NCBI GenBank assembly: GCA_024762925.1
Contig: JANTGM010000004.1
Location: 1-64,000 of the forward strand
DNA from: Kofleriaceae bacterium
GTDB lineage: Bacteria; Myxococcota_A; Polyangia; Haliangiales; Haliangiaceae
Direction of reading: 5' to 3'
DNA length: 64,000 nt
Shown: positions 2,013 to 55,274 of the stretch, piece after piece
Layout of the letters: each line of letters opens with the position of its first letter
Position numbering within the stretch: the first letter of the stretch is position 1
The notes under the pieces: model-generated
The model's input: the letters and a program-made list of their open reading frames with translations, nothing else
Told to the model about the DNA's origin: nothing
The model's database searches: none
Translations under genes and position numbers: made by a program

Positions 2013-2810
2013 ATGTCAGTGTCTCTACCACCCTCGGCTCAGCGTTTGGAGCGAGGCGAGTTTGTTCTCCTCTGCTACCGCCTTGGCCAAAGCAAAGCAA
2101 CAGGGGTGCTCACTCTTGAACTCGATCAAGGCAGCTCCGAGCTGCTAGTGCTTCGTCGCGGGCAAGTGTTCACACGCAATAGTGATGCTCTTGGTCGCAG
2201 GACACGTCGACGACTTGAAACGCTTGCGGTCGCGGGCTGCTACGCCCACTTTGATAGTGGTCTGGCAGCGTATCCGCCGAGCATTGGCCAACCCTTCTCC
2301 CTGGCCGATTGGGCGCGCTCCCACCTCGAATCGCAAATCGACTCGGCGCGAGCACAGGAGCTGGTGCGAGAACTCGCTGGCGTCCGCCTGGTCGCCGTTC
2401 CCGACAAGCTTCCAGACTTGGCAAGCTTGGACGCCACGGATCAACGCATCGTGGAGACCATGCGGATGCCAAGGCGGCTCGATCAAATCTGGCCGCTCGC
2501 GCGCACACCACGTTTTCGTCTGCTGTGCTTCATCCACTTCATGCGGGCAGTGGGCGCGGTTCGAGAGCAGGGGGTTGCAACCAGTGCGCGTCCCCGTATT
2601 GGAACACCTGGTAGGCGGAGTGAGGCAATGCGCACCTTGGGGCTCAAGGGCTTTGCAAGTCCACAAGAGGTGAAGCGAGCCTACCGCAACTTGGCTCGCA
2701 CATTACATCCAGATCTGAACCACACGCAGACGAGGGCTGAGCGTCGCGCAAGCGAACAGCAACTCGCCGATGTGAACAGCGCCTATCGCGAACTCATGCA
2801 AGCGCGCTAG
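2013..2810 (+). CDS. PATAN/DUF4388-like protein with C-terminal J domain
   Basis: A 265-residue soluble protein with two recognisable parts. Residues about 15-90 (FVLLCYRLGQSKATGVLTL, ELLVLRRGQVF) resemble the PATAN/DUF4388 fold found in many myxobacterial and deltaproteobacterial regulators. Residues about 203-262 form a J domain with the invariant HPD at 232-234 and the helix KRAYRNLART before it. J domains stimulate the ATPase of DnaK-type Hsp70, so this is probably a specialised co-chaperone. There is no Gly/Phe or zinc-finger region, so it is not DnaJ itself. The client is unknown. The gene ends 12 bp before the RtcB-like gene, so the two may be co-transcribed. Confidence 0.78.
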   Translation: MSVSLPPSAQRLERGEFVLLCYRLGQSKATGVLTLELDQGSSELLVLRRGQVFTRNSDALGRRTRRRLETLAVAGCYAHFDSGLAAYPPSIGQPFSLADWARSHLESQIDSARAQELVRELAGVRLVAVPDKLPDLASLDATDQRIVETMRMPRRLDQIWPLARTPRFRLLCFIHFMRAVGAVREQGVATSARPRIGTPGRRSEAMRTLGLKGFASPQEVKRAYRNLARTLHPDLNHTQTRAERRASEQQLADVNSAYRELMQAR

Positions 2811-2822
2811 GCTTCGGGGTCT

Positions 2823-4031
2823 ATGAACGACCCCAAGCTTGCCTACGCCAAAGAACACGTCTTCATGGCCGGCGTTGACGATAGTGGCGCGCGGCTTTGC
2901 GAAGCCAACCTCCCCTATGGCCTTGCCAAGATCCACCACGTGCAAGCCGAGCTCGGATTGCCACAAGATGCGTCCTTTGTCGGCTCGCCCGACTGCACCA
3001 TCACACGTAACAAGAGGCGCTGGCAGCAAGGCTTTGGCTATGGCGGTGTCTACCAATGGTCTGGAGACTTCGCCGTCTTGGACATCAAGACCAACGCGTG
3101 CGGCATGCTCGTTGGCTCGCTTGACGAGATGCCCGAGCATGAAGCCGTCAAGGAGCAGCTCCGGATTCTTGAGCGCGATGGCTTGACGCTTGATGGCACT
3201 CGCATCGATAACGACCTCACCGAGTCCAATCACTTCGTCGATCTTCTTACGGTGGATCCCCAGGAGCAAAAGGAAGAAGCCCCCGCTGGCGCCAAGCACT
3301 TCTTCATCATGCACTCTAGTGGCCATGAGCACCGAGCAAATACCGCGCTTGGTCCAGGATTGTACTACGACGAGTCCGAAGAACTCGTTGCCATGGCACG
3401 CAGAATCGAGACCCCGTGGGGTGACATTCGCATTCTCGAAGGTGCGATGGCAGCGCGTTGGTACCAGTTCTATAAAGAAGCAGAAGATTTCGTATTCCGC
3501 AGGCGAGAACTGCTCGCAAAGCATCTCTTCGGCGATTTTACGGTTACGGTCAATGCAACGCATCAGGGCTTGGTGCGCGGTTACAACCAAGCCAATGTTG
3601 GCTGCTATCACTACGACGTTGAAGATGGCACGGATGACGGGCCGCTCTTTCCGCTCACACTCTCGCCCGAACTGCCATGCTATCTAGTTCGTGGTAAACG
3701 CAACGTGAGCGAGGAAGCCATGACCAATCTTGGGTGGGACGAGCGACTCGACAAGCATGGCCTTCGCGAGCGGATTGCCGACACCAATCTGCTGCCTCAC
3801 GGTGGCGGCTACCGGTACACGCAGTTTAGTGGGGTTGCCAGCGTGGTTCAGGAGGGGCCCGACAACCGCTTCTTCGAATTGCAATCGACAACCCCCGGTG
3901 AAGAAAACCCGCGCATCGCGACGCCTCGCGACTTGCCATACGCGTATCGCGGAATGGAAGTTAAGGATCGCATGACTGAGCTTGGACTTGGCGATCCAGT
4001 GGTAAAACTCAATCTCAACTACGTTCTGTAG
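2823..4031 (+). CDS. divergent RtcB-like protein
   Basis: A 402-residue protein that keeps the order of RtcB RNA-ligase motifs despite low overall similarity. It has an Asp/Cys metal segment (LDIKTNACGM, D87/C93), the NHF motif (ESNHF, H137), the HSxG motif (MHSSGHEHR, H164) and a helix resembling the RtcB AMxxAxxYA helix (GAMAARWYQFYKEA). Then follow a central His (NATHQGL, H247), CYLVRGKRN at 286-294, PHGGG at 325-329 (candidate for the guanylylated His), and a C-terminal AYRGMEV...GLG...VVKL like the AYKDIDEV tail of RtcB. RtcB joins 2',3'-cyclic-phosphate to 5'-OH RNA ends using GTP and Mn2+. The D-to-C spacing is longer than in canonical RtcB. The activity could be altered or lost. Confidence 0.7.
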   Translation: MNDPKLAYAKEHVFMAGVDDSGARLCEANLPYGLAKIHHVQAELGLPQDASFVGSPDCTITRNKRRWQQGFGYGGVYQWSGDFAVLDIKTNACGMLVGSLDEMPEHEAVKEQLRILERDGLTLDGTRIDNDLTESNHFVDLLTVDPQEQKEEAPAGAKHFFIMHSSGHEHRANTALGPGLYYDESEELVAMARRIETPWGDIRILEGAMAARWYQFYKEAEDFVFRRRELLAKHLFGDFTVTVNATHQGLVRGYNQANVGCYHYDVEDGTDDGPLFPLTLSPELPCYLVRGKRNVSEEAMTNLGWDERLDKHGLRERIADTNLLPHGGGYRYTQFSGVASVVQEGPDNRFFELQSTTPGEENPRIATPRDLPYAYRGMEVKDRMTELGLGDPVVKLNLNYVL

Positions 4032-4058
4032 AACGCCAATCGTTCGCGAACGGACTCC

Positions 4059-5495
4059 ATGCCAGTGAATCAGGCACTCGCTCCAAAGGTCGTGTGGCTC
4101 TGCGCACTGAGTCTTTGCTACTACTGCGCTGTCACCATTGGCGATACGGTGGCTCAGTCCGTCTTTGTGAGCCGCCTCGGAGTTGGTGCACTGCCGAACA
4201 TCTTCCTTCTCAAAGCAGGAATCGATGTGCTCTCGGGATTCCTCTACCTGCCACTCACCCAGGGGCGCTCACCGAGGCGAATTTGGCAAGTATTGCTGTC
4301 CTTCTACGCACTCGTCGTTGCAATCGGCTGGTGGACAAGTTCGGGGAGCGGCAGCGATTTCGGCGCTTATGTCCTCTATGCTGGCCATGAGGTCGCCTGG
4401 ACCCTAGCAGTCATTCACTGGGGAATCTTCTTACTCGACGTGTTTGGCCCAGCTGAGAGTCGCAAGCTCTTCCCCGTGCTCTTTGGCGTTGGCAGATTAG
4501 GAGCATTGCTAGGTGGCTTGCTCGTGGGAAGCCTCGCAGTGCCTATCGGAGCCAGCAACCTTCTGTGGATCGCCATCACCCTCGCCCTCATCTCGGTGTT
4601 TGCAAGCACGCGCCTGGGAAGCCACACACCTCGCCGCGAAGCGCACTCCAGCATTGGAAAAGCCCGGCGCGACGCGCTCGCATCTCCGCTCATTCGGCTC
4701 ATCGCTCTTTCCACCGCAACGATGGTCATGCTTCGCTACGGGCTGCGAATGGTCTCACTAGATGAGATCCGCAGCGCCTTCGATCACGACAAAGATCAGG
4801 TTGCTGCCTTCTTGGGACTTTTCTCAGTGGTCGGAAACGCGCTCGCTTTCGTCCTTGGCCTCTATGTGGTTCCGCGTATCTTGGCCCGTCTCGGTGTGGG
4901 AGCTGCCAACTTGGCCTATGCAAGCTCAACGCTCTTCGCATTTCTTCTAACCTGGCTCTTGCCAGGCCTTGCCTCTGCAAGTGGCGCGCGCTTTGTGGAA
5001 ATGCCACTCAAACACTCACTCAAGACCCCACTCTCAGTGCTCTTCTACGGCGCCGAAGAACCTCGCATTCGCATCGCTGCTCGGTCGATAATTTTTGGGG
5101 TCGCCATTCCCGTCGCAACCGTGGTCGCTGGGCTCAGTTTTCGCGAACTGCGCAGTCACGTAGGTCTCATCAGCGTCTTGGGTGTGGCCACCTCGATCCT
5201 CTACGTAGCAATCTGTGCTTGGCAGAATCGGGTCTATCGCCAACGACTGGAGCACTTATTGGCCATCGAGTTGAAAGACGAGACGCCACCTGCGGAGCCC
5301 ACTGAGCGCTGGGAGCTGCAGCTGCAAGAAATGGCTCCAGCTCTTGGCGATCGCCCACGACAGCTCGCGGCACAGGCGTTTGCAGCCGACAATGAGGCTC
5401 TGCGCTCCCTGGCCTTGGTCGTGCTTAGCGAGCAGCTGCCCCATCACTTGGCCTCGGCAATTGGGCGCGCTACGCTCCAGCCTGATGGCGGTTGA
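4059..5495 (+). CDS. polytopic membrane protein, MFS/nucleotide-transporter-like
   Basis: A 478-residue integral membrane protein with about ten to twelve hydrophobic segments, beginning with WLCALSLCYYCAVTIGDTVA. The layout (paired helices with short basic loops, then a cytoplasmic helical tail of about 80 residues after the last helix) fits an MFS-type or ATP/ADP-translocase-like carrier. No substrate-defining motif is recognised. It overlaps cheW by 11 bp and so is translationally coupled to the chemosensory operon as its first gene. This suggests a sensory or transport role tied to that pathway, which is inference. The start ATG is 27 bp after the RtcB-like stop codon. Confidence 0.7.
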   Translation: MPVNQALAPKVVWLCALSLCYYCAVTIGDTVAQSVFVSRLGVGALPNIFLLKAGIDVLSGFLYLPLTQGRSPRRIWQVLLSFYALVVAIGWWTSSGSGSDFGAYVLYAGHEVAWTLAVIHWGIFLLDVFGPAESRKLFPVLFGVGRLGALLGGLLVGSLAVPIGASNLLWIAITLALISVFASTRLGSHTPRREAHSSIGKARRDALASPLIRLIALSTATMVMLRYGLRMVSLDEIRSAFDHDKDQVAAFLGLFSVVGNALAFVLGLYVVPRILARLGVGAANLAYASSTLFAFLLTWLLPGLASASGARFVEMPLKHSLKTPLSVLFYGAEEPRIRIAARSIIFGVAIPVATVVAGLSFRELRSHVGLISVLGVATSILYVAICAWQNRVYRQRLEHLLAIELKDETPPAEPTERWELQLQEMAPALGDRPRQLAAQAFAADNEALRSLALVVLSEQLPHHLASAIGRATLQPDGG

Positions 5496-5970
5496 ACATG
5501 AGGGCCAAGCAGAGCTCACCAAACTGGTGTGCTTCTTGTTGCAAGGCCAAGAGTACGCCGCGGATATTTTCTTCGTCAAAGAGTCTCTCAAGATGAAGCC
5601 GATTACGAGGGTCGCCCTCACACCCGGCTGGCTCGCTGGCATCATCAACCTGCGCGGAGACGTGGTCGCTGTTATCGACGTATCGCTGTTCTTGGGAATG
5701 CCCAAAACGGAAATCTCTTCGAGCACACGGATCGTTGTTGCCACACACAAGGGCCGCCGAGCGGGGCTCCTTTGCGATGCACTCTGCAACCTTCGCAACC
5801 ATGACCTTGCGACCCTGCAACCTCCCCCTGCCACATTAGACGAATCTGCGTCTTCGGTTCTGGCGGGCGTCCTCACTCTCGAGGACGACAAACCACTGCG
5901 CGTACTTGACCTCGGGGCTCTCTTTGAGAGTCGCGAGCTTGCGTCCTTTCGACGCGGAGATTCTCCATGA
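5485..5970 (+). CDS. cheW: chemotaxis coupling protein CheW
   Basis: A 161-residue CheW-domain protein. The start chosen is ATG 5485 (MAVEHEGQAELTK), because the longer in-frame extension lies inside the preceding gene and has no family similarity. Typical CheW features are FLLQGQEYAADIFFVKES, then TPGWLAGIINLRGDVVAVID, the conserved NLRG loop that contacts receptor and CheA. CheW links receptors to CheA in the signalling array. It overlaps the previous gene by 11 bp and the MCP gene by 4 bp (ATGA). Confidence 0.92.
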   Translation: MAVEHEGQAELTKLVCFLLQGQEYAADIFFVKESLKMKPITRVALTPGWLAGIINLRGDVVAVIDVSLFLGMPKTEISSSTRIVVATHKGRRAGLLCDALCNLRNHDLATLQPPPATLDESASSVLAGVLTLEDDKPLRVLDLGALFESRELASFRRGDSP

Positions 5971-7979
5971 CCAAGAGTAAACGACGAGTGCCCATGTTCC
6001 TTAAGTTCTGGGTGGGCTGTTCTACCCTGGCAACGCTGCTGATTATCGGTGGCCTCTTGGTCGTGCGATCGGAGACCAAGATGAAGTCGCGTGGCGACTA
6101 CCTTGCAAAGCACTTCAAGCGCTACGAACAATACCAAGAGGGGCTTGGGCAAGCAGTCTCCTCTGTCGCCGCCATGATGGCCACGGATGGCGAGCTGATT
6201 GCGGCGCTCACTCCAACAAGCGCAACACCAACGCCTCCAGTAGACGAGGCAACCGGCAAAGTTCTTGCCGACCCCAAAACGCTCGCAGAGGGCCTCTTTC
6301 AGCGTGTCTCCGGCAAGAACGCCGTTCGCCCTGACCTCTTTGTCGTCTTTGATACGAGCAAGATGATCTGGAGCAATCCCGCATCGAAGCTCGGTCCCGA
6401 GGAGATTGAAGAGCTAGAGCCCGTTGCACGAGTACGCTCAGGTCAGGCGTTCTACAACAAGGTGCTCATCACAAACGAACGCGCCATCCAGCTGGCCGGC
6501 GTGCCCATGCGCTCCAGCACCGGAGCGGTGGTTGGTGGCATTCTTGTTGGCGTCGATGTCACCCGCTACATGAAACAGTACCAAGCACAAAGTGACACAA
6601 GGGTCGCGATGCAACACCAGCTATCGATGGTTCACAACGGCAAAGTTGTCGCCTCGGTGATGCCTCGAGACGTCTGGCCAGAGCTAGGCGTCCAACTCCA
6701 AGAAGAAAAATGGCATGAGACACAAGAAGGGGACTACACCCGGGTCTTTGTGAGTCTCAAACAGGGCAACTTCGATTTTACTCAGGGTCCCGTGGAGGGC
6801 TTTGCCGGCATCGACTCAGGACACATCGCCTCACTCTTCTTGCTTCGCAGTCGAGCAAACCTAAAAGGCCGCGGCCCCCGAATCCCCTGGATCGAGATGC
6901 TCATTGGGGCCGTATTGTCGCTGGCGATGGCTTCGCTCCTTGCCTTCTGGATCACCCGCCCCATCAAGAAGTTCGTGGTTCAGAGTCAGCAGATGCTCGA
7001 AGGAGGTGGCGACCTCAATCAGCGAATTGAAATTTCCTCCCGCGATGAAACGGCCGATCTGGCGCGCAACATCAACAAGGTATTTGCGCGGCTCTACAAC
7101 CTCGCCAGTGAGGTGCAAGGAGCCGCCTTCCACGTGGGTGCATCCTCCGCGCAAATCGGAGCCGCCTCACGCAATATGCTCGGTGGCCTCCAAGATCAGA
7201 CGTTCAAGATCGAAAGCTCCACCGCAGCGATAACCGAACTTTCCGCGTCGATTCAGCAAGTGGCAACAAACGCCAACCAAGCCGCCCAGGTTGCAGAGAA
7301 GACCAATACTGCTGTGGGCAATGCAGTTCAGCGCATGCAACAAATCCGCAGTTCGGTGGTGCAAGCATCATCGAAAATGGCTGAGCTTGGCGAGAGTTCA
7401 AAGCGCATCGGGCACATTGTCGAAGTGATTCGGCAAATCAGCGAGCAAACCTCACTACTCGCGCTCAACGCTTCCATTGAAGCGGCACATGCAGGGGAGC
7501 AAGGCCGAGGCTTTGCCGTCGTCGCCGATGAGGTTAGTTCTCTGGCGCGTCGTGTTGGGCAATCCGCAAAAGACATTGAGGCACTCATTCAAACTGTGAA
7601 AGAGCAAACAAGCGATGCGATTGCATCGATGGAAGTGGGCAGCTCGGACGTTGAAAGCGGAACTCTGCTCGTCACCAACACACTCCAAGATCTGGGTGAC
7701 CTCATCGCGACGGTGAATGACACCGCAACAGCGGTCCAAGAGCAGGCGGAAGTGTCTGATGAAATCGCGCGCAACATGGATGCCGTGCAGACCATCGCGT
7801 CCGAGCTTGTGGTCGGGTCTGAGGAAGCGGTGCAACAGGGAGAACAACTTCACACGCTGGCGTTCGAGCTCGAACGATCGGTTGGCGGCTTCAATCTCGA
7901 CGGCGAAAAGGACCCATCCGGATCAGTAAAACACCTAGCCAGCAACTCCCCTGCCGAGCTCACGGATGGTGACGCCTAA
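5967..7979 (+). CDS. methyl-accepting chemotaxis protein
   Basis: A 670-residue receptor. TM1 is at about 11-34, followed by an extracytoplasmic sensor of about 270 residues with a Cache-like look (GGILVGVDVTRYM), TM2 at about 306-328 and HAMP after it (WITRPIKKFV). The long cytoplasmic coiled coil carries the hairpin tip: the core EQTSLLALNASIEAAHAGE, then GRGFAVVADEV, at about 492-525. The tip is the CheA/CheW contact. Ligand is not predictable. It begins inside the cheW stop (ATGA) and overlaps cheR by 14 bp. No C-terminal CheR/CheB tether pentapeptide (NWxxF-like) is visible. Confidence 0.93.
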   Translation: MTKSKRRVPMFLKFWVGCSTLATLLIIGGLLVVRSETKMKSRGDYLAKHFKRYEQYQEGLGQAVSSVAAMMATDGELIAALTPTSATPTPPVDEATGKVLADPKTLAEGLFQRVSGKNAVRPDLFVVFDTSKMIWSNPASKLGPEEIEELEPVARVRSGQAFYNKVLITNERAIQLAGVPMRSSTGAVVGGILVGVDVTRYMKQYQAQSDTRVAMQHQLSMVHNGKVVASVMPRDVWPELGVQLQEEKWHETQEGDYTRVFVSLKQGNFDFTQGPVEGFAGIDSGHIASLFLLRSRANLKGRGPRIPWIEMLIGAVLSLAMASLLAFWITRPIKKFVVQSQQMLEGGGDLNQRIEISSRDETADLARNINKVFARLYNLASEVQGAAFHVGASSAQIGAASRNMLGGLQDQTFKIESSTAAITELSASIQQVATNANQAAQVAEKTNTAVGNAVQRMQQIRSSVVQASSKMAELGESSKRIGHIVEVIRQISEQTSLLALNASIEAAHAGEQGRGFAVVADEVSSLARRVGQSAKDIEALIQTVKEQTSDAIASMEVGSSDVESGTLLVTNTLQDLGDLIATVNDTATAVQEQAEVSDEIARNMDAVQTIASELVVGSEEAVQQGEQLHTLAFELERSVGGFNLDGEKDPSGSVKHLASNSPAELTDGDA

Positions 7980-9108
7980 CGCTCTTCCACCAGACGTGCT
8001 CGGAAAAATCCGCACGAGCATCACGGAGCGCACTGGTTTGAACCCGCAAGACTGGGTGCTGGAAGCCCGAGTGCAAGAACGCATGCGAGAGCGCGGCGTA
8101 GACCAGGCGCACACATATGCTGATCTACTTGGGGGCAGGCCCGAACTAACCGCTCTCATCGAGCTGTTGCGTGTCGGCGAGACCCGGTTCTACCGCCATG
8201 AGTCTCAAATGCGTGCGGTGGTCGAACTCGTCATGCCTGCGCTGCGACGCGGCGTCGGGCCCGCCAGACTGTGGAGCGCGGGATGCGCAACCGGGGAAGA
8301 AGCCTACACCCTTGCGATGCTGCTCTCACGAGGGCTTGACGGCCATCGCTCGTTCAAGATTCTTGCCTCAGACATTTCCCCAGCTAGCATCGAGCGCGCC
8401 AGGGCGGGAATTTACCGCGAAGCAGCGATCGGCACCTTGCCACACAGCTATCGAACCGGCTTTGAGCGTTCCGCCGACGGTAACTTCCAAGTCTCCCCTG
8501 CCTTGCGAGCGCTTGTGGAATTTGAGGAACGCAACCTTGCAACGGGAGGCTACCCAGGTTCCTTCGACCTGATCTTTTGCAGAAATGTTCTGATTTACTT
8601 CGAGGAGTCGGCGAAAGACGCGGCGCTTCGTCGGCTTGTCAAGGCACTCAAACCAGGCGCCTTCCTCTTCTTGGGGTACTCAGAGTCGCTCCGAGATGTC
8701 GCCGGTCTTGAGGTGGTTAGCAGCGACGAATGCACTGTTTACCGGCGGAAGATGGCGCTGGATTCCGCAGTGAACCGCCCCTCCACAGGCGTCCGAGTTC
8801 TAATGCCCACACCTTTGGACTCGGCAAACACCCAGCCTGCCACGTCGGTCCTCGTCGCCCTACAAGGCCAGTACTCCAACGGCCAACGCCTCCAGTCAGA
8901 GCTCGATGTGGCGTTTCGCAAAGCCACAACGCATGTCGTAGTCGACCTTGACGGAGCCGACTACTTGGGCCAAGAGACCGCTGATGTTCTTCGCAACATG
9001 CGTGAGAAAGCCATGCTTCGCGGAATCGCACTGCGCTGGTGTGCAACCCGGGCGGGCCACCTACGCTTTCTTCGCCGCCACAATCTTAGCGACGGAGACA
9101 AAGAATGA
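7966..9108 (+). CDS. cheR: CheR methyltransferase fused to a C-terminal STAS-like domain
   Basis: 380 residues. Residues 1-270 are a complete CheR: an N-terminal helical domain with RVGETRFYR, the SAM-binding WSAGCATGEEAYTLAM and the RNVLIYF motif. The enzyme methylates glutamates of the MCP. Residues about 285-375 add a STAS/MlaB-like domain (VLVALQGQ..., VVVDLDGADYL, LRGIALRW). In it the usual phospho-acceptor Ser (DxSG...DSSG) is replaced by GQET, so it probably acts as a binding or docking module and is not switched by phosphorylation. CheR-STAS fusions are unusual. It overlaps cheA by 4 bp. Confidence 0.88.
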   Translation: MVTPNALPPDVLGKIRTSITERTGLNPQDWVLEARVQERMRERGVDQAHTYADLLGGRPELTALIELLRVGETRFYRHESQMRAVVELVMPALRRGVGPARLWSAGCATGEEAYTLAMLLSRGLDGHRSFKILASDISPASIERARAGIYREAAIGTLPHSYRTGFERSADGNFQVSPALRALVEFEERNLATGGYPGSFDLIFCRNVLIYFEESAKDAALRRLVKALKPGAFLFLGYSESLRDVAGLEVVSSDECTVYRRKMALDSAVNRPSTGVRVLMPTPLDSANTQPATSVLVALQGQYSNGQRLQSELDVAFRKATTHVVVDLDGADYLGQETADVLRNMREKAMLRGIALRWCATRAGHLRFLRRHNLSDGDKE

Positions 9109-11912
9109 GCGATGCAGTTCAGCTTTGGGACGCATTCGTCACCCGCGGCCTAGACGATAGCCACGTCTTAGTTGATAGCATCGCGAAGCTCATTGGCGAA
9201 GAACTCGGGCGCGATTCGCTTCCCGAACTCGCATACATCTCCTTCTCGTTGGCTTCACAAGCGCTGCTCTTGGGTGCGCAAGACTTGGGCAAGCTAGCGG
9301 CGGCAATTGAACGATGCTTTGGCCTGCTCTACGACGGCGAAGTGGATCCGGCCCAAGCCCTCCCCCTTCTCGCCGCGGGCATCGAGACCGTCGACAAGGC
9401 CTTTGCCGAGCTCGAAGCGGCTGACGAGAGTGGCGCCCGCATCGAAAACACTCCCCTAAAGGCGGCTACCTACGAACTTGAGACGCTCTTTCCCATTCCA
9501 GGCAGCCTGGAAAGTGCCCCATCAAGAGCAATTGCAGGCGGACCGGATGTCCCAATTGGAAGGCTCGTTCGTCCGAAGCCTGCCGTGGGTATCAGCCGAG
9601 TTCTGCGCGATCAAGAGCCGGACCAGAGCCACAATCCTATGCTTGGAACGGAGCCCCCCGCTAAACTGTCGAGCGAGGTCGCCTGGCACCCGGAGCTTGG
9701 TGACGACATGATCGATCTCTTCTTTCTCGAGGTGGATGACCGCATCGAGGCACTATCAGCAAAACTCTTAGAAATCGAGCAGCGCCCAGGAGACGTCGAG
9801 TTGCTTCGCGATGTGTTCCGAGACTGGCACACGATCAAGGGCTCGTCGGCAATGGTGTCTCTCGAGCCCATGACCCAACTCGCCCATGCAGCCGAGGACC
9901 TGGTCGGTCAACTGCGGGAAGGAACTCGCAGCGCCACGGGGCCAGTCATTGATGCACTCTTGGCCGCCTTGGATGCGCTCCGCGAAATCGCCAGCCAAGC
10001 GCAGAACGACCGAGTCATCCGGCTGGTGCTCACTCCACTCTATGAACGCTTGCGTCAGCCCGAAGTACTAGCAATGGCCAACGTGGTCGCGACTCCACTG
10101 CCACCGCAAGACACAGCCGACGACAAGGCTCCCGCTCCCAGTCCACGCTCGAGCAAACGGCAAACGATTCGAGTCGACTTTGACAAGCTCGACAGTCTCA
10201 TGAATCTCATCGGCGAACTCGTGCTGGGCCGCGATAGCCTACGTGGTGCCGTCTCGGCGCTCTCCGCGCTTAGTGGCGAGTTGGCTGGGGAGCAGCAACT
10301 AAGTCGCATCCTTCGCAAGGCCGAGCGTTCCGAGAAAGGCCAACTGCAGGTGCTCAGTGAGGAACTTGGGCGCGTTGAGCGCGTTCTTATCGACATCTTT
10401 CAAGAGCTCGACAACTCGTCCGGGCGGCTAGACAGCATCTCTGCAGATCTTCGGGACTCGGTCATGGGGCTGCGCATGGTGCCTGTCGCTGGCACGCTGA
10501 GAAAACACCACCGAACGGTTCGCGACTTGGCCAATAGCATGGGCAAGAGAGTCACGCTACAGCTGCAAGGAGAAGACACCGAGCTAGACAAACTGCTTGT
10601 CGAAGCGATGGACGAGCCGCTCATGCACCTAGTCCGCAATGCCGTCGATCACGGAATCGAAATGCCGGCTGATCGCGAAGCGAGCGGCAAATCGCCCGAG
10701 GGCACAATTCATCTCAGGGCGATGCACAAGGGCAATCAAGTTGTCATTAAAATCCGCGACGACGGCGGTGGCATCGACCCAGAGCGCATCAAGGCGCGGG
10801 CGGTAGAACGACAGCTCATCACGCCGGAGGTGGCGGCCTCGATGAGCAAGAAAGAAATTCTCGAGCTCATTTTTCACGCCGGCTTTTCCACTGCAGAAGT
10901 TGTGTCGGAGGTATCGGGCCGAGGGGTTGGCATGGATGTCGTTCGGCAAACCATCATCAACCGCCTCAAAGGCACCATTGACATTGCTTCCGAGCTCGGA
11001 ACGGGCTCGACGTTCACCTTGCGATTGCCGCTCACGTTGGCGATTGCACAAGTGCTGCTCGCCCGAGCTGGCGGTGAGACGTTTGCGATTCCATTGGACG
11101 CTGTGGCCCGAACCCTTGTCTTGCCGATGACCGCCATCGATCGAATTCAAGACCGAGAGTTCGTGGCGGTCAAGGGCGAGCAGGTGCCCCTGATTCGCAT
11201 CAATCGAGTGCTCGGCTTGAGCGTCGGCCATGAAGATATTGCCCGGGAGCTGCGAGTGGTGTTGTGTGAACATGGCGAGAGCCTGTACGCGCTCGCGGTG
11301 GAGGCGCTCATTGCCAAGAAAGAGATCGTCATCAAATCTCTTGGCGACATCCTTGAAGATGTTCCATGTGCAGGGGGAGCAACCCTTCTTGGCGACCGCT
11401 GTGCGATCATTCTCGATGTCGGAGCGGTAATTCGGCGAGCCGTTCAAGGGTCCGCTGGGGCGGGCTATGGCCCTCCTCCCGCACCAAGGAGCGATTCGCA
11501 ACGGTCCAAAGACTCAACAGACGCGGTTCCAAACCCCGATTCGGCCTCAGTACTTCTCGTAGAGGACTCAGAGGTCGTGCGAGAAGCACTCCGGCGCCTT
11601 CTCACACAAGCAGGCTACCGAGTTGTGGTTGCTAACGATGGAGTGGAAGGGCTTGCCGCAGCCAAGAAAGAAGCGTTCGACCTCGTCTCAACAGACGTGA
11701 TGATGCCACGCATGGATGGATATGAACTCACACGCGCGCTTCGCAAGACGCCAGAGTATCGCGACACCCCCATCATCATGGTGACGAGTCGTGGCGAGCG
11801 CATCGATAGGGTTCGGGGCTTCGATGCTGGTGTCGACGAATACATCACCAAGCCACACGATAGGCATCTCTTGGTGCGCACGGTGAAGCAACTCTTGGGG
11901 GAGATGCCATGA
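9105..11912 (+). CDS. cheA: hybrid chemotaxis kinase CheA with C-terminal receiver
   Basis: 935 residues. In order: a helical, His-lacking HPt-like region at about 1-105; a linker; a true HPt at about 200-300 with H242 in WHTIKGSS; a dimerisation helix pair at about 355-450 (MNLIGELVLGRDSL). Then come a HATPase with the N box HLVRNAVDHG at 508-517, DDGGGID and GRGVGMDVV, a CheW-like domain at about 650-785, and a receiver at about 810-935 with D864 in STDVMMPRMDG. It phosphorylates CheB and receivers in response to MCP state. The fused REC may act as phosphate sink or output. No CheY gene follows, which gives weight to the REC domains here and in the next gene. Confidence 0.93.
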   Translation: MSDAVQLWDAFVTRGLDDSHVLVDSIAKLIGEELGRDSLPELAYISFSLASQALLLGAQDLGKLAAAIERCFGLLYDGEVDPAQALPLLAAGIETVDKAFAELEAADESGARIENTPLKAATYELETLFPIPGSLESAPSRAIAGGPDVPIGRLVRPKPAVGISRVLRDQEPDQSHNPMLGTEPPAKLSSEVAWHPELGDDMIDLFFLEVDDRIEALSAKLLEIEQRPGDVELLRDVFRDWHTIKGSSAMVSLEPMTQLAHAAEDLVGQLREGTRSATGPVIDALLAALDALREIASQAQNDRVIRLVLTPLYERLRQPEVLAMANVVATPLPPQDTADDKAPAPSPRSSKRQTIRVDFDKLDSLMNLIGELVLGRDSLRGAVSALSALSGELAGEQQLSRILRKAERSEKGQLQVLSEELGRVERVLIDIFQELDNSSGRLDSISADLRDSVMGLRMVPVAGTLRKHHRTVRDLANSMGKRVTLQLQGEDTELDKLLVEAMDEPLMHLVRNAVDHGIEMPADREASGKSPEGTIHLRAMHKGNQVVIKIRDDGGGIDPERIKARAVERQLITPEVAASMSKKEILELIFHAGFSTAEVVSEVSGRGVGMDVVRQTIINRLKGTIDIASELGTGSTFTLRLPLTLAIAQVLLARAGGETFAIPLDAVARTLVLPMTAIDRIQDREFVAVKGEQVPLIRINRVLGLSVGHEDIARELRVVLCEHGESLYALAVEALIAKKEIVIKSLGDILEDVPCAGGATLLGDRCAIILDVGAVIRRAVQGSAGAGYGPPPAPRSDSQRSKDSTDAVPNPDSASVLLVEDSEVVREALRRLLTQAGYRVVVANDGVEGLAAAKKEAFDLVSTDVMMPRMDGYELTRALRKTPEYRDTPIIMVTSRGERIDRVRGFDAGVDEYITKPHDRHLLVRTVKQLLGEMP

Positions 11913-13708
11913 AAGTCCTGCTCTTCACAGACGATCCTGTCTTGCCAGAATTTCTTCGGCGGCCGCTGGAACCGCTTGGCCACAGGCTCATGCAAGCAAG
12001 TTCCGCATCCGCATTCCACACAGCGCTTGAGAGCAGCGCTCCGGACGCAGTCCTCTTGCCAAGACGGCTGCCAGACAGCGACGCGGCGGCAGAGATTCGA
12101 TTCCTGCGAGAGCACCCGGCATGCGGCGAAGTAAGTATTATTCTTATATGCCTGGGAATCGACGACAAGACGAGCACAAGCGGCCTCGCGGTCGACGGCC
12201 GGCTTTCTGTGCCATTTAGCGACGCTGACGTTCTTACCGCGTTGAACGTAAGCGAACGGGCAAAGAAGCTCATTCTCCTGGTCGATGATTCGCAGCTAAT
12301 TCACAGTCACACAGCACCGATCCTGCGCGACGCTGGCTATGAAGTGGTCTCGGCCTACGATGGGGCAGAAGGCCTGCGGTTGACTCGTGAACGAAAGCCC
12401 GATTTGCTGATAAGCGATGTTGAGATGCCAAAGATGGATGGCTACGAACTCTGCCGTCTCATCAAGGAAGATCCAGGGACGGCCCACCTTCCCGTTCTGA
12501 TCTCGTCGACGCTGGGAGAGAGCCAAGACTTGGAGCGCGGATTTGACGCTGGTGCGGACGACTACATGGTCAAGCCTGTGATCGCCGTTGAGCTACTCAC
12601 TCGCACAAAGCAGCTTCTCGCTGAGAGCATGCCAGCCACCCGCGAGCACATCTTGGTCGTCGACGACTCGCCAGCCCAACGCCACTACGTTGCAGATTGT
12701 CTGTCGCGCCAAGGCTTTCGCATCTCGACGGCGGAGAATGGGCGAGTCGCGATGGAAATGGTGCTAGCCGAGGCCCCACACTTGGTGGTGTCCGACTACG
12801 AGATGCCGGAGATGACGGGTTTTGAGCTTGTGCACTCCATTCGCGCAAACGCGCAAACACGAAACACTCCGGTCATCATGCTAACGGCTCGCGACTCCAA
12901 GCGAGACATGGCGCAAATGCGTGCAGCCGGAGCAAGCGCATACTTGGTGAAACCCTTTGCGCAAGACAAGTGTATCGCCACCGTTGAACGCACCTTGGCC
13001 GAGCGCAGGCTGCTCGACTACAAGATCGCTTCGAGTGTGTATATTTCTCAAGGTGCACAGGCGGCCGCCGAGGAGCGAGCTCTCAGCGGCGAAATGTCCT
13101 CGATTCGAGCGCAGGAAGAGGAGCTTGCCATTCTCTTTTCGGATCTTGCCGGCTTCACCTCGATGTCGCTACACATGACACCCCGCGAAGTAATCGAGCT
13201 ACTCAACGACTACTTCGATGTCATGTGTCCACTCATCGTCGAGCTTGATGGCGATATCGACAAGTTCATTGGCGATGCCATCATGGCGGTCTTTCCAGAG
13301 ATACCTGGCAAGGCCTCGCCCGCCGAGCGAGCAACCCGGGCAGCAATGGCGATGCAGGCATGTATGCCGGCCTTCAATGCAAATCGCCCTGTCAAGCTAG
13401 CCATGCGCATCGGTGTCAACACGGGTCCCGTGGTGCGTGGCGACTTGGGTTCCGCTGTTGTTCGCCGCGACTACACAGTCATTGGCGATACCGTAAACCG
13501 GGCCAATCGCTATGAGATGAACAGCCCCATCGGTGGAGTTCTGATCAGCCAGTCAACGCGCGACATCCTCGGTCCTCTCATCGAAGTAATTCCTCATCCC
13601 GGCCTCACCCTCAAAGGCGTTGACAGCCCTGTGGTGGGATACGAAGTGAGCAGCATCGGACCTCCTACCAATCCTCCTCTCGCCCAAACTACTGAGCAAG
13701 AAGTATGA
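11909..13708 (+). CDS. three-receiver adenylate cyclase (REC-REC-REC-class III cyclase)
   Basis: 599 residues. REC1 (1-115) is degenerate: the phospho-Asp position reads LLPRRLP. REC2 (about 120-240) has D170 and K222 and REC3 (about 246-366) has D296 and K348, so both look active. After a helical linker, the class III cyclase (about 405-575) keeps both metal Asp residues (SDLAG D412, GDAIM D456). K452 in DKFIGD and D in VIGDTVNRANR are the pair that selects adenine, so cAMP is the likely product. All key residues needed in a homodimeric cyclase are present. It sits between cheA and cheB with 4-bp overlaps, so CheA phosphorylation is the probable input and cAMP the output of this pathway. Confidence 0.9.
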   Translation: MKVLLFTDDPVLPEFLRRPLEPLGHRLMQASSASAFHTALESSAPDAVLLPRRLPDSDAAAEIRFLREHPACGEVSIILICLGIDDKTSTSGLAVDGRLSVPFSDADVLTALNVSERAKKLILLVDDSQLIHSHTAPILRDAGYEVVSAYDGAEGLRLTRERKPDLLISDVEMPKMDGYELCRLIKEDPGTAHLPVLISSTLGESQDLERGFDAGADDYMVKPVIAVELLTRTKQLLAESMPATREHILVVDDSPAQRHYVADCLSRQGFRISTAENGRVAMEMVLAEAPHLVVSDYEMPEMTGFELVHSIRANAQTRNTPVIMLTARDSKRDMAQMRAAGASAYLVKPFAQDKCIATVERTLAERRLLDYKIASSVYISQGAQAAAEERALSGEMSSIRAQEEELAILFSDLAGFTSMSLHMTPREVIELLNDYFDVMCPLIVELDGDIDKFIGDAIMAVFPEIPGKASPAERATRAAMAMQACMPAFNANRPVKLAMRIGVNTGPVVRGDLGSAVVRRDYTVIGDTVNRANRYEMNSPIGGVLISQSTRDILGPLIEVIPHPGLTLKGVDSPVVGYEVSSIGPPTNPPLAQTTEQEV

Positions 13709-14772
13709 CTGCACAGACCATAAAAGTACTCGTTGTCGACGATTCCCTCTTCATGCGGGCTGCTATCAAGAGTCTCCTCGACTCGCGGCCCGAGTTCTAC
13801 GTTGTGGACATGGCCAAGGACGGCAAAGAGGCAGTCGACAAAGTGCTCTCACTACGCCCCGACGTTGTGACGATGGACTTCAACATGCCCCGTAAGAATG
13901 GCGTGGAAGCCATCGTTGCCATTATGGAGCAGTGCCCAACCCCGGTGCTCATGTTCTCGGCGCACACTCGTCAAGGCGCAAAAGAAACGTTTGATGCCCT
14001 GCATGCTGGTGCATTTGATTTTGTCACAAAGCCCGCTGGTGAGGTCTCGGCGCAATTGGACGGCATTGCGGATGAACTCTGCAGCAAGCTTGCAGCCGCA
14101 GCGCGAAGCACACCGCGGACAAAACCAAGGACACCAACGCGAACATCTCTGCGCACGACGCGACCTATGAGCGTGCCAACGCTCCGATCGTCGCGAACGA
14201 TGGCAGCAGTGAATCCAAACCCGCGCATCGTGTTCATTGCGATTTCCACTGGCGGCCCCGTGGCGCTATCCCGTGTCATTCCGCAGCTTCCAGCAAGTCT
14301 TCGAGTCGGTATCGTTATCGTGCAGCACATGCCGCCCACCTTTACCGGAGCCTTGGCCGAACGGCTCAATGCAGAAAGTCCTCTACAGGTTCGCGAAGCA
14401 GCCAACGGCGACATGCCCTGCCCTGGACTCGTGCTCGTGGCCCCCGGTGGACAGCACGTCGAATTCGATTCCAGCGGTGCCATTAAGCTCGTGGCAGGCC
14501 CGCTCGTTCACGGTTGCCGACCAGCCGCTGACGTGACCATGAAGAGCGCCGCTCGTGTGTACGGCCGCCGGGCCATTGGTCTCATCATGACTGGCATGGG
14601 GAAGGACGGCGCAGAGGGCTTGCTGGCCATCAAACAAGCTGGAGGCAAGACGCTCGCCCAAGACAAAGCGAGCAGTGTCATTTTTGGCATGCCGAAAGCT
14701 GCACTTGAACTGGATGCGGTCGACGAGATCGTGGCTCTCGACGACGTCGCAACCAAGCTACAGCAGATTTAG
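13705..14772 (+). CDS. cheB: chemotaxis methylesterase CheB
   Basis: 355 residues. Receiver at 1-125 with phospho-Asp D58 (VTMDFNMP), a Thr/Arg/Pro-rich linker at about 134-165, then the esterase/deamidase domain. The catalytic triad is visible: S181 in ISTGGP, H208 in QHMP, D301 in GMGKDGAEG. It removes methyl groups from the MCP when phosphorylated by CheA. It is the last gene of the operon and ends 8 bp from the convergent haem lipoprotein gene. No hairpin terminator is visible between them. Confidence 0.94.
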   Translation: MTAQTIKVLVVDDSLFMRAAIKSLLDSRPEFYVVDMAKDGKEAVDKVLSLRPDVVTMDFNMPRKNGVEAIVAIMEQCPTPVLMFSAHTRQGAKETFDALHAGAFDFVTKPAGEVSAQLDGIADELCSKLAAAARSTPRTKPRTPTRTSLRTTRPMSVPTLRSSRTMAAVNPNPRIVFIAISTGGPVALSRVIPQLPASLRVGIVIVQHMPPTFTGALAERLNAESPLQVREAANGDMPCPGLVLVAPGGQHVEFDSSGAIKLVAGPLVHGCRPAADVTMKSAARVYGRRAIGLIMTGMGKDGAEGLLAIKQAGGKTLAQDKASSVIFGMPKAALELDAVDEIVALDDVATKLQQI

Positions 14773-14780
14773 CGTTTTTC

Positions 14781-15482
14781 TTAGGGCTTCAGATCGAACT
14801 CGGCCCAGAGTGCTCCACGCAGATCTCCGTTTTCATACCCCGTAGCTTTGTCTTCCGGGTAGCGAGATGCGAGCAGAGTCTTCATTGCTTCCGAATGCGG
14901 ATCCGTACTTCCATGACATGCGAGGCAAAGCCCACCTACGGCAAGTGGGATAAGCACGCGAGCGGTTCCGTCGACCACCTCTTCAACACCAGCGACACCT
15001 TCGGCCTTGCGCTCCCCAGTTTCAGTTAGCCAAGTCTTGACCCATTCTGGCGCCTCAGCGTTTTTCGGATTTCGCAGACGGAGAGTCGAGCGCCCGACGC
15101 GCAGCCGATTGCTGCCAACGCCCGCGGTTAGAGACGAGGCTTCCGCAGCACATGCCTGCAATGCCCCCTCTGGGCCGCCCTCTTGCATTGCACTCATGAG
15201 ACGTCCTTTGAGCGTGCCACCAAGAGCCTTTGCGCCGGCCTTTGCGGCAGCCAAGCCCTGCTCAGGCGATGCCTCCCCGGTCATTTCGTAAGGCGCAGGT
15301 GCGGCGGGCTCTGGAGCGGGCTCTGCGGTTTCGGGTATAGGTTCCGGTGCAGTCTTGGCCGCAGTCCCCTTAGCTGGTGTCGCGTGGGGCGCAACCTCAG
15401 AAGGTTTCGGTTGTTTCTCGTCCTCTTTCGAACAAGCACTCACAACGGCGATGGCACACAAACCTACTAGCAATCGATTCAT
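14781..15482 (-). CDS. mono-heme lipoprotein with Tll0287/DUF3365-like domain
   Basis: The start chosen at 15482 gives MNRLLVGLCAIAVVSACSK, a lipoprotein signal with lipobox VSAC. A Pro/Ala/Glu-rich linker to about residue 70 follows. The C-terminal domain has a single haem motif CLACHG and the surroundings of the Tll0287-like (DUF3365) haem domain: CAAEASSLT, RSTLRLRNPKNAP-like text (RNPKNAEAPEW) and LCLACHGS. Such domains bind one c-type haem in the periplasm and are often sensory. It faces cheB tail to tail. Function is unknown; a redox-sensing link to the chemosensory operon is only suggested by position. Confidence 0.75.
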   Translation of the reverse strand: MNRLLVGLCAIAVVSACSKEDEKQPKPSEVAPHATPAKGTAAKTAPEPIPETAEPAPEPAAPAPYEMTGEASPEQGLAAAKAGAKALGGTLKGRLMSAMQEGGPEGALQACAAEASSLTAGVGSNRLRVGRSTLRLRNPKNAEAPEWVKTWLTETGERKAEGVAGVEEVVDGTARVLIPLAVGGLCLACHGSTDPHSEAMKTLLASRYPEDKATGYENGDLRGALWAEFDLKP

Positions 15483-15576
15483 GAGCTGAGCATACGACAA
15501 AGCGCGATGGAACGCGGTTACAGGGGACTCTCCATCGCCTCAGCTGGCGCCCAGTCCGTGGACGCCAGGGGCAAGC

Positions 15577-22537: not shown

Positions 22538-24238
<1,701 letters not shown>

Positions 24239-24261
24239 CGCTCCAAAACGAGACCACCCCA

Positions 24262-25356
24262 ATGCCGCCAACACTGCACCAACTTCTAAAGGCCATGATC
24301 GACAAGGGAGCGTCGGATCTTCACATCACGACCGCTTCCCCGCCACAGCTTCGTATCGACGGTGAGCTCGCGCCTCTGAGAACCGAGCCGCTATCCCCTG
24401 TCGAAACCAAGCAGCTGTGTTACTCCATCCTCACCGATGCTCAGAAGCTTCGCTTCGAAGAGGATCAAGAGCTCGATCTCAGCTTTGGCGTAAAGAATCT
24501 TGCGCGCTTTCGCTCAAACATTTTCATGCAGCGAGGAGCAGTTGCCGGCGCGTTTCGAATGGTGCCCTTCAAGATCATTCCTCTGCGGGATCTTGGATTA
24601 CCACCGGTGGTTGATGCCCTCTGTGAGCGCCCGCGCGGACTTGTGCTTGTTACCGGGCCTACGGGATCCGGAAAATCCACGACCCTGGCCTCGATGATCG
24701 ACAAGATCAACTCCACAACCCGACAGCACATCGTCACGATCGAGGACCCGATTGAATTCATTCACGCCCACAAGGGCTGTCTCGTCAACCAACGAGAGAT
24801 TGGTGCAGACTCACAGAGTTTCAAGCGTGCCCTGCGATACATCCTTCGCCAAGATCCAGATGTCGTTCTCATCGGCGAGCTTCGCGACCTTGAGACCATC
24901 GAGGCCGCACTTACGATTGGTGAGACGGGCCACTTGGCGTTTGCAACGCTGCATACCAACGGCGCGGTCCAGAGCATCAACAGAATTGTCGATGTGTTCC
25001 CGCCCCATCAGCAGTCGCAGATTCGCGCAGTGCTTTCCTTCGTACTTGAGGGCGTGATTTCACAGACGCTCATACCAAACCTCAGTGGCCGAGGCCGCAC
25101 GCTCGCCATGGAAGTAATGGTTCCAAATTCAGCTATTCGAAACCTCATTCGCGAGGATAAGGTGCATCAGATTTATTCTCAGATGCAGATTGGTCAGAAG
25201 AAGTTCGGCATGAAGACGATGAATCAATCGTTAAGCGAATCGGTGCTGCTCAAGAAGATTTCTCTTGAGGATGCCTTGATGCGCTCGGACGACATAATAG
25301 AACTCAAGACACTGATAGCAGAAGCAGGCGGCGGCCCACGGCCCTCACGCACGTGA
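24262..25356 (+). CDS. pilT: type IV pilus retraction ATPase PilT
   Basis: 364 residues. It starts MPPTLHQLLKAMIDKGASDLHI as PilT proteins do. Walker A GPTGSGKSTT lies at about 131-140, Walker B VVLIGELRDLETIE, His box TGHLAFATLHTNGA. Near the C-terminus the PilT-specific AIRNLIREDK motif is present, essential for retraction. It depolymerises pili and so drives twitching-type motility. Lies 23 bp after pilB. Confidence 0.96.
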   Translation: MPPTLHQLLKAMIDKGASDLHITTASPPQLRIDGELAPLRTEPLSPVETKQLCYSILTDAQKLRFEEDQELDLSFGVKNLARFRSNIFMQRGAVAGAFRMVPFKIIPLRDLGLPPVVDALCERPRGLVLVTGPTGSGKSTTLASMIDKINSTTRQHIVTIEDPIEFIHAHKGCLVNQREIGADSQSFKRALRYILRQDPDVVLIGELRDLETIEAALTIGETGHLAFATLHTNGAVQSINRIVDVFPPHQQSQIRAVLSFVLEGVISQTLIPNLSGRGRTLAMEVMVPNSAIRNLIREDKVHQIYSQMQIGQKKFGMKTMNQSLSESVLLKKISLEDALMRSDDIIELKTLIAEAGGGPRPSRT

Positions 25357-25383
25357 AGGCACTCGGGAGAATAGGAACAAACA

Positions 25384-26586
25384 ATGCCCAAGTTTGATTG
25401 GCAAGGTCAGTCCCGAGAAGGGGACATGCTCAGCGGCACCTACAGCGCTGGCAATAAGGACGAGGTTCTCGCGCGATTGCGCGCCGAGAACATCACTCCT
25501 CGCAAAGTCTCGAAGCAGGCCAGAGAGATAAGTTTCAGCATTGGAACCGGTGTTAGCCACCAAGACCTGCTCATCTTCACGAGGCAGCTTGCCACGATGA
25601 TTGATGCGGGACTTCCCTTGGTCCAGTGTCTCGACATTCTCGGCACCCAAAGCGACAACAAGAGCTTCGCCAAAGTGTTGCTTGGAGTTAAGGGACACGT
25701 CGAAACGGGTGCCACCTTTTCCGAGTCGCTTCGCAAATACCCCAAGGTCTTCGATGAACTCTACGTCAACCTCATCGCCGCCGGTGAGGTCGGCGGTATC
25801 CTAGACACCATTCTCACCAGACTCTCGGAGTACATCGAGAAAAACGTGAAGCTCAAGCGCCAGGTTAAGAGCGCGATGGTGTACCCAATCTCGATTCTTT
25901 GCATCGCGATCTTGGTTATCGCCGTCATGCTTGGCAAGGTCATCCCAGTCTTCGAGGAGATGTACCAAGAATTCAAAGGAGCGACGCTTCCAGAGCCAAC
26001 GCAAATCGTCATTGGCATTTCAAACAGCTTCACCAGCAACTGGTACATCTACTTTGGAAGTTTGGCTGCCTTTCTAATATTTATGACCGTTACCCTAAAC
26101 AATCCCAAGGGTAGAAAGGTCTTTGACGCGCTCATTCTAAAGTTCCCTGTCATCGGCTCGGTGATGAGAAAGATTACCGTGGCGCGTTTCACGCGAACGC
26201 TTGGCACCCTGCTCGCCTCTGGTGTCCCAATTCTCGACTCCCTCGAAATCTGCGCCAAGACATCTGGCAACAAGACCGTTGAAGCCGCCATCTATCACGC
26301 TCGCGAGAAGATTTCAGAGGGTAAAGACCTAGCTTCGCCTCTCATGGAAACCGGAGTATTCCCCTCCATGGTTGTACAAATGATCGGAGTTGGTGAGCAA
26401 ACAGGCGCCATGGATCAGATGCTTCAGAAGATTGCCGACTTCTACGAAGAAGAGGTGGATGTTGCTGTAGCTGCCATGACATCTCTTATGGAACCCATCA
26501 TGATGGTCTTCCTCGGTGGTCTCGTCGGTGGTCTCATTGTCGCCATGTACCTCCCGGTTTTCGAACTGGCTGGCAACATCGGCTAG
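25384..26586 (+). CDS. pilC: type IV pilus inner-membrane platform protein PilC
   Basis: 400 residues, two GspF/T2SF domains. The first (FTRQLATMIDAGLPLVQCLDIL) and the second (FTRTLGTLLASGVPILDSLEI) are followed by the GEQTGAMDQML signature. Three membrane helices are seen (around SILCIAILVIAVMLG, IYFGSLAAFLIFMTV and the C-terminal MMVFLGGLVGGLIVAMYL). It is the rotor/platform that couples PilB and PilT to pilin. Lies 27 bp after pilT. Confidence 0.95.
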   Translation: MPKFDWQGQSREGDMLSGTYSAGNKDEVLARLRAENITPRKVSKQAREISFSIGTGVSHQDLLIFTRQLATMIDAGLPLVQCLDILGTQSDNKSFAKVLLGVKGHVETGATFSESLRKYPKVFDELYVNLIAAGEVGGILDTILTRLSEYIEKNVKLKRQVKSAMVYPISILCIAILVIAVMLGKVIPVFEEMYQEFKGATLPEPTQIVIGISNSFTSNWYIYFGSLAAFLIFMTVTLNNPKGRKVFDALILKFPVIGSVMRKITVARFTRTLGTLLASGVPILDSLEICAKTSGNKTVEAAIYHAREKISEGKDLASPLMETGVFPSMVVQMIGVGEQTGAMDQMLQKIADFYEEEVDVAVAAMTSLMEPIMMVFLGGLVGGLIVAMYLPVFELAGNIG

Positions 26587-26593
26587 GCAGCGG

Positions 26594-52910: not shown

Positions 52911-52946
52911 GGTGCGATGCCAGGATAACCACAAAGTTGCCTTTAC

Positions 52947-52958
52947 AGGAATTATCCT
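52947..52958. promoter_or_regulatory. inverted repeat AGGA-N4-TCCT in divergent promoter region
   Basis: AGGAATTATCCT, a 4+4 bp inverted repeat around ATTA. It lies between the cytochrome operon and the cNMP/ferredoxin gene, in an 107-bp divergent intergenic region. Candidate operator or half of a larger site; short enough to be chance. Confidence 0.3.
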
Positions 52959-52961
52959 CCT

Positions 52962-52975
52962 CTACTATCTAGTAG
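52962..52975. promoter_or_regulatory. palindrome CTACTA-TC-TAGTAG, candidate operator
   Basis: A perfect 6-bp inverted repeat with a 2-bp centre in the 107-bp gap between the two divergent redox operons, four bases from the first palindrome. Its central position suggests joint control of both directions. It does not match the CRP consensus TGTGA-N6-TCACA. Confidence 0.4.
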
Positions 52976-53017
52976 TGGATGTTGCCCACCGGCGGGATCA
53001 CGTAGCGAAGTCGGACG

Positions 53018-55255: not shown

Positions 55256-55274
55256 CAAGATACGAACTCTTCCT

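Follow-up and report, generated by a model that had tools for sequence, protein, structure and literature searches.

A predicted receiver-adenylate cyclase as the probable dedicated output of a chemosensory pathway in Polyangia

Introduction

The targets of known chemosensory pathways are motors, c-di-GMP (Wsp) and, indirectly, cAMP (Pil-Chp). In the Wsp system of Pseudomonas, the CheA-type kinase WspE phosphorylates the receiver-diguanylate cyclase WspR. The class III adenylate cyclase CyaC of Arthrospira is regulated by receiver phosphorylation and carries its own kinase. In Pil-Chp of Pseudomonas aeruginosa, the receiver is a separate protein, PilG, which activates the cyclase CyaB (PMC12632253). 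WspC is treated as a typical CheR-TPR of its pathway class, and receiver-mononucleotidyl cyclase fusions were placed by a 2012 survey among the outputs found in CheR-TPR clusters of the alternative cellular function (ACF) type (PMC3447774). The main text of that survey gives the category only, with no function tested and no mention of the three Polyangia genera that we looked for. Chemosensory output through a mononucleotidyl cyclase is therefore known as a category; the conserved che-cyclase pathway treated below was not found described in the literature searched, most subscription papers lying outside the search.

Here we analyze a 64,000-nucleotide stretch, referred to as the window, of the 6.79-Mb genome of an uncultured myxobacterium of the Kofleriaceae (Polyangia, Myxococcota) against a comparison set of 289 Polyangia genomes. 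An earlier note on this DNA had proposed a chemosensory pathway with cAMP as its output.

Results

Nine genes at 2013-14772 of the window, all on the + strand, follow one another with gaps of at most 27 bases and, at the last five junctions, with overlaps of 4 or 14 bases; they therefore most likely form one operon. A promoter and terminator scan gave no signal above shuffles. The genes are as follows.

2013..2810, +, DnaJ-domain protein, 265 aa, first gene of the putative operon (Pfam DnaJ, E 8e-9; homologues 5' of cheW in L067, L074 and L083)
2823..4031, +, 402-aa protein, probably cotranscribed (homologue upstream of the same operon in L054; no family match at E <=3 in Pfam or 0.1 in NCBIfam)
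4059..5495, +, 478-aa protein, probably cotranscribed (homologues 5' of cheW in L051, L054 and L109; no family match in Pfam or NCBIfam)
5485..5970, +, cheW, coupling protein (Pfam CheW, E 2e-32; frame open from 5344, likely ATG at 5485 read from the frame)
5967..7979, +, MCP, transmembrane chemoreceptor with a predicted periplasmic Cache-type sensor (Pfam MCPsignal and HAMP; AlphaFold2, Foldseek)
7966..9108, +, cheR, methyltransferase with a weak C-terminal STAS-like stretch (Pfam CheR, E 3e-50; STAS below its cut-off)
9105..11912, +, cheA, hybrid kinase with Hpt (H242), dimerization, ATPase, CheW-like and C-terminal receiver (D864) domains (Pfam)
11909..13708, +, output response regulator with a degenerate receiver (REC1), two further receivers (REC2, D170; REC3, D296) and a predicted class III adenylate cyclase domain
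13705..14772, +, cheB, methylesterase with a receiver (Pfam CheB_methylest, E 6e-62, and Response_reg; above the NCBIfam CheB cut-off)

MCP, CheW, CheA, CheR and CheB, the components of a Che pathway, are thus encoded in one operon, and the Hpt and ATPase residues of CheA are intact. The output is a multidomain response regulator, a feature that the locus shares with ACF systems. The two family-less proteins at 2823-5495 apparently begin the same operon, are conserved 5' of cheW in families f16 and f17 (L051, L054, L109), and the second, to judge from its sequence, looks like a membrane protein. Just 3' of cheB, a Tll0287-like protein is encoded on the opposite strand (14781-15500).

The earlier note had found neither CheY nor a motor gene. 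This holds for the operon and the window but not for the genome, in which FliG is encoded on contig C10 and a stand-alone CheY-like protein lies beside another CheA on contig C37; absence of a flagellar motor from the genome was accordingly rejected.

The periplasmic domain of the MCP was modeled with AlphaFold2 (mean pLDDT, 90). The best Foldseek matches of the model were the sensor domains of DctB, PctD, Mlp37 and LuxQ (E 2e-8 and weaker, 10-14% identity), from which we assign the sensor to the Cache type. It is far more variable than the cyclase (mean column identity of 31% versus 57%).

The cyclase is encoded by a single 599-aa open reading frame spanning exactly 11909-13708, flanked by cheA and cheB with an ATGA-type 4-base overlap on each side. 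Pfam analysis of the protein returned Response_reg (E 8e-61, in two scoring stretches) and Guanylate_cyc (E 2e-25). REC2 contains the residues D126/D127, D170, S200 and K222 and REC3 the residues D252/D253, D296, T326 and K348, while the phospho-acceptor position of REC1 is occupied by P rather than Asp. All six of the cyclase residues that were checked are present: the two metal-binding Asp residues (D412 and D456), the transition-state Asn and Arg (N530 and R534), and an adenine-selecting Lys/Thr pair (K452 and T523) rather than Glu/Gly. The same K/T pair occurs in the adenylate cyclases CyaB of P. aeruginosa (3r5g) and CyaC of Arthrospira (1wc0), and the Synechocystis guanylate cyclase 2w01 has E and G at the equivalent positions. 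The predicted product is cAMP; guanylate cyclase activity was discarded as the prediction because of K452/T523. Each part of the earlier description, a triple-receiver cyclase between cheA and cheB with a full catalytic set and two intact receivers, was thereby borne out.

Forty-six homologues could be aligned. D412, D456 and K452 are present in 46 of 46, and T523, N530 and R534 in all 44 that cover these positions. D170 is likewise found in 46 of 46 and D296 in 44 of 46; in a wider homologue set, the exceptions at D296 are confined to a group without che genes. No homologue in the alignment or the wider set has Asp at position 51 in REC1. Since the homologues align with the key residues essentially invariant, this architecture is far beyond chance. 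The helical stretch leading from REC3 to the cyclase domain (approximately residues 361-380) is as conserved as the receivers. The multidomain AlphaFold model had a pTM of 0.52, and its domain arrangement was left uninterpreted.

The locus resembles Wsp in having a che operon without a CheY of its own, a hybrid CheA and a receiver-cyclase fusion that would make a second messenger. It differs in that the output domain is a class III nucleotide cyclase (Guanylate_cyc) rather than the GGDEF domain of WspR, is preceded by one degenerate and two intact receivers, and is accompanied by a CheR with a weak STAS-like tail (7966-9108) in place of the TPR that is known from CheR fusions and expected in WspC. 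Pfam gave no TPR match in this CheR, which also sets the locus apart from the ACF survey clusters. Pil-Chp is likewise a chemosensory pathway and raises cAMP, as this one is predicted to do, and CyaB (3r5g) is among the nearest solved cyclases, but in the window the cyclase has receivers of its own within the same polypeptide, encoded inside the operon; PilG/PilH-type single receivers and pil/chp genes, which would mark the Tfp class, are absent from the nine operon genes. CyaC (1wc0) belongs to the class III adenylate cyclases, as the window protein is predicted to, and has its K/T pair in common with it, whereas at this locus the kinase role falls to a chemoreceptor-coupled CheA. The same architecture and residues recur, at 31-38% identity, in three-receiver cyclases of Gammaproteobacteria and divergent Polyangia, which have no partner CheA or che operon beside them.

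Two further sets of loci were noted. In Gammaproteobacteria metagenome-assembled genomes (L207-L216, L220 and L231), receiver-cyclases 32-38% identical to the window protein have no adjoining che genes, and that of L212 adjoins an HD-GYP-like protein and an FGE-sulfatase protein. In Treponema metagenome-assembled genomes (L236:774-8131, L237 and L238), a cluster of MCP, CheW, CheB and CheR is followed by a protein of 507 aa in which Pfam finds CheW-like and receiver domains and no kinase domain, and then by a cyclase of 594 aa with an N-terminal receiver so degenerate that Pfam misses it. This is a second che-linked cyclase of different make-up.

A search of the 289 genomes for the cyclase gave 49 carriers, almost all of them metagenome-assembled genomes. 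Four were divergent homologues (33-34% identical) of a different group, and 45 were kept; the cyclase stretch of a same-genus relative is 80% identical. At phylum level, strong matches were confined to the class Polyangia, bar two weaker ones. The cyclase and the partner CheA occur together in 42 of the 289 genomes, the cyclase alone in 3, CheA alone in 1 and neither in 243 (Fisher P = 9e-46, a statistic that ignores phylogeny). Among the exceptions, the cyclase of G128 is a fragment on a short contig, and in the single genome with CheA alone (G120) the contig ends inside cheA, just before the expected start of the cyclase; this incomplete CheA still groups with the partner CheAs. In G029 (L081) and G265 (L082) the cyclase adjoins cheB, and the genome search revealed no recognizable partner CheA, for which loss, another kinase or assembly gaps are possible reasons. 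Within the window's own family, the two genes are acquired or lost together, with 16 of the 17 genomes that lack the cyclase also lacking the partner CheA.

The order CheW-MCP-CheR-CheA-cyclase-CheB is kept in families f1, f3, f6, f9, f17 and f22 and in part of f14. Approximately 18 genomes of f14, f16, f26 and f31 encode CheA at another locus than the cyclase and CheB, which lie within a few kilobases of each other, yet they retain both CheA and the cyclase. From 20-kb neighborhoods their cyclases had seemed to be orphans without CheA, a reading that was dropped once a search with CheA located the partner kinase at other sites in these genomes.

In a cyclase tree, che-linked and split cyclases group together in a single clade (95% SH-aLRT), separate from a group of Gammaproteobacteria and a few Polyangia without che neighbors. 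A CheA tree whose sample included the CheAs of other systems from the same genomes placed the partner CheAs in one clade (99/97 support), separate from all other sampled CheAs. Throughout this CheA clade the Hpt histidine is kept (36 of 36 members covering the position), as are the ATPase boxes and the C-terminal receiver, which is intact (Asp, 40 of 40). In the CheA of the window this receiver occupies residues 816-927; it was absent from the earlier note and would be a fourth receiver competing for phosphate, besides that of CheB. The split genomes fall into two separate clades in both trees, f16 with f31 (and f32 in the cyclase tree) and f14 with f26, which suggests that the operon was probably broken twice independently.

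The window also encodes, at 53018, a protein in which two cNMP domains, along with clusters of the ferredoxin type, were confirmed. In the first cNMP site, RL stands in place of the R82-S83 of Escherichia coli CRP, and the second site lacks the motif. The protein has two paralogues, one on contig C26 that keeps RS and one on C16, so that the genome has three cNMP-ferredoxin proteins (53018-55255 on C4, C26 and C16; L099, L106) with differing cNMP site residues. The gene is found in 8 of the 289 genomes, 4 with the cyclase and 4 without. It lies in a redox module at 51573-58985, together with a gene for a 453-aa protein and one for a 1,236-aa fusion of FHA, cytochrome c3-like, ferredoxin and pyridine-nucleotide oxidoreductase domains. 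As the neighbors at 51573 and 55275 travel with it in L150-L152, the 53018 protein belongs to a conserved cytochrome/redox module of its own. Across the whole genome there are nine class III cyclases, and about 15 proteins carry a total of 22 cNMP-binding domains. One of these proteins is a CRP-like regulator on contig C50 with a cNMP cassette of canonical form (GEMSLFDGKERSA) and a C-terminal stretch that reads as a putative helix-turn-helix.

Discussion

These data make it likely that the locus encodes a chemosensory pathway whose dedicated output is a predicted adenylate cyclase. The earlier proposal that CheA signals to the cyclase gains from the operon order, the shared history of the two proteins, the adenylate-type substrate residues and the invariant receiver and catalytic residues. 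Because both proteins have traveled together through many related lineages, they very probably function as one sensing pathway; their co-occurrence, the retention of both when unlinked and the invariant residues argue well for a route from CheA through REC2/REC3 and the cyclase to cAMP.

In the mechanism that we propose, the Cache-type chemoreceptor, acting through CheW, would control autophosphorylation of CheA on H242 of the Hpt domain. Phosphate would then pass to D170 and D296 of the cyclase, to the receiver of CheA itself and to that of CheB. Class III cyclase activity needs a dimer, and phosphorylation of REC2, REC3 or both may shift the pairing of the cyclase domains through the helical linker, bringing those of the dimer into or out of register and so setting cAMP output. 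REC1, for which the usual phosphorylation is precluded, probably serves in structure or docking and may tune the flow, and the CheA receiver is probably a phosphate sink or tuner. CheR and CheB would adapt the receptor. The cAMP would then act through general cAMP receptors of the cell rather than specifically through the 53018 protein; we infer that the C50 CRP-like regulator is the most natural of these and the best candidate.

Phosphate could be routed in other ways. FrzE is a CheA-CheY fusion, and by analogy the receptor, kinase and CheB could serve a main output through the C-terminal receiver of CheA; the cyclase would then be a phosphate sink or a side branch, its activity of little importance. 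That receiver is intact and conserved throughout the clade, and several receivers compete for one Hpt at the locus. A mere sink, however, would not need metal, substrate and transition-state residues that are invariant in all che-linked and split homologues covering them, and the cyclase is kept alongside CheA even where the two are unlinked; we regard this routing as distinctly improbable. A somewhat stronger case, but still an unlikely one, can be made for a cyclase that several histidine kinases use in common as a phosphorelay output, CheA being only one input or REC2 and REC3 each answering to a different kinase. The presence of two separate, intact receivers in the protein would suit such an arrangement, as would G029 and G265, which keep the cyclase without a recognizable partner CheA (assembly gaps being possible), and the related cyclases of Gammaproteobacteria and other Polyangia; since the same architecture occurs there without che genes nearby, it does not by itself require CheA. 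Against sharing stand the near-perfect pairing with one CheA clade and the strict gene order in unsplit lineages, which favor the dedicated CheA-to-cyclase route.

As to what the cAMP controls, the earlier note had it reaching the 53018 protein and hence electron transfer. Both genes lie within one 64-kb window, and the first of the two cNMP domains has a partly canonical phosphate-binding cassette. The idea nevertheless fares badly: the protein occurs in few genomes, half of them without the cyclase, compared with 45 that bear the cyclase; its conserved neighbors are redox genes; the S83 equivalent is L and the second site is degenerate; and nine cyclases and about 15 cNMP proteins share the genome. 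We consider it highly improbable and rejected the protein as the cAMP target. Type IV pili are a less remote candidate. By analogy with Pil-Chp of Pseudomonas, the pathway may regulate them; the targets, direct or under cAMP control, would be pilB, pilT, pilC and pilS (a PilS-type kinase), which lie at 22538-28345, 8 kb downstream of the che operon. These genes keep their position relative to the operon in G091 (f3) and G046 (f22). Unrelated genes in between, such as a methyltransferase gene at 16568, are kept in the same synteny block, however, so the proximity may be plain synteny, and in G079, G109, G072 and G279 the adjoining stretches examined contain no pil genes. With weak synteny and the analogy behind it, the pilus link is a reasonable guess, albeit somewhat unlikely.

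Our preferred reading thus remains the CheA-to-cyclase pathway, in which receivers and a predicted adenylate cyclase are joined in one protein inside a che operon conserved over many Polyangia families. Compact and testable, the system lends itself to asking how cAMP could be set by arrays of receptors and why a cyclase should need a dead receiver beside two working ones, and the natural split of the operon provides a clean test of partnership without gene linkage. A bolder version is a serious possibility, if short of probable: that this is an old, dedicated chemosensory-to-cAMP pathway of Polyangia, with one kinase and two receivers of a single cyclase, in which, in some lineages, cyclase and CheB later relocated away from the CheA half and the partnership was kept. 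If so, the cAMP output could integrate two phosphorylation events, as an AND gate or as an activator plus a brake, and adaptation by CheR and CheB would give a cAMP signal that tracks change rather than level.
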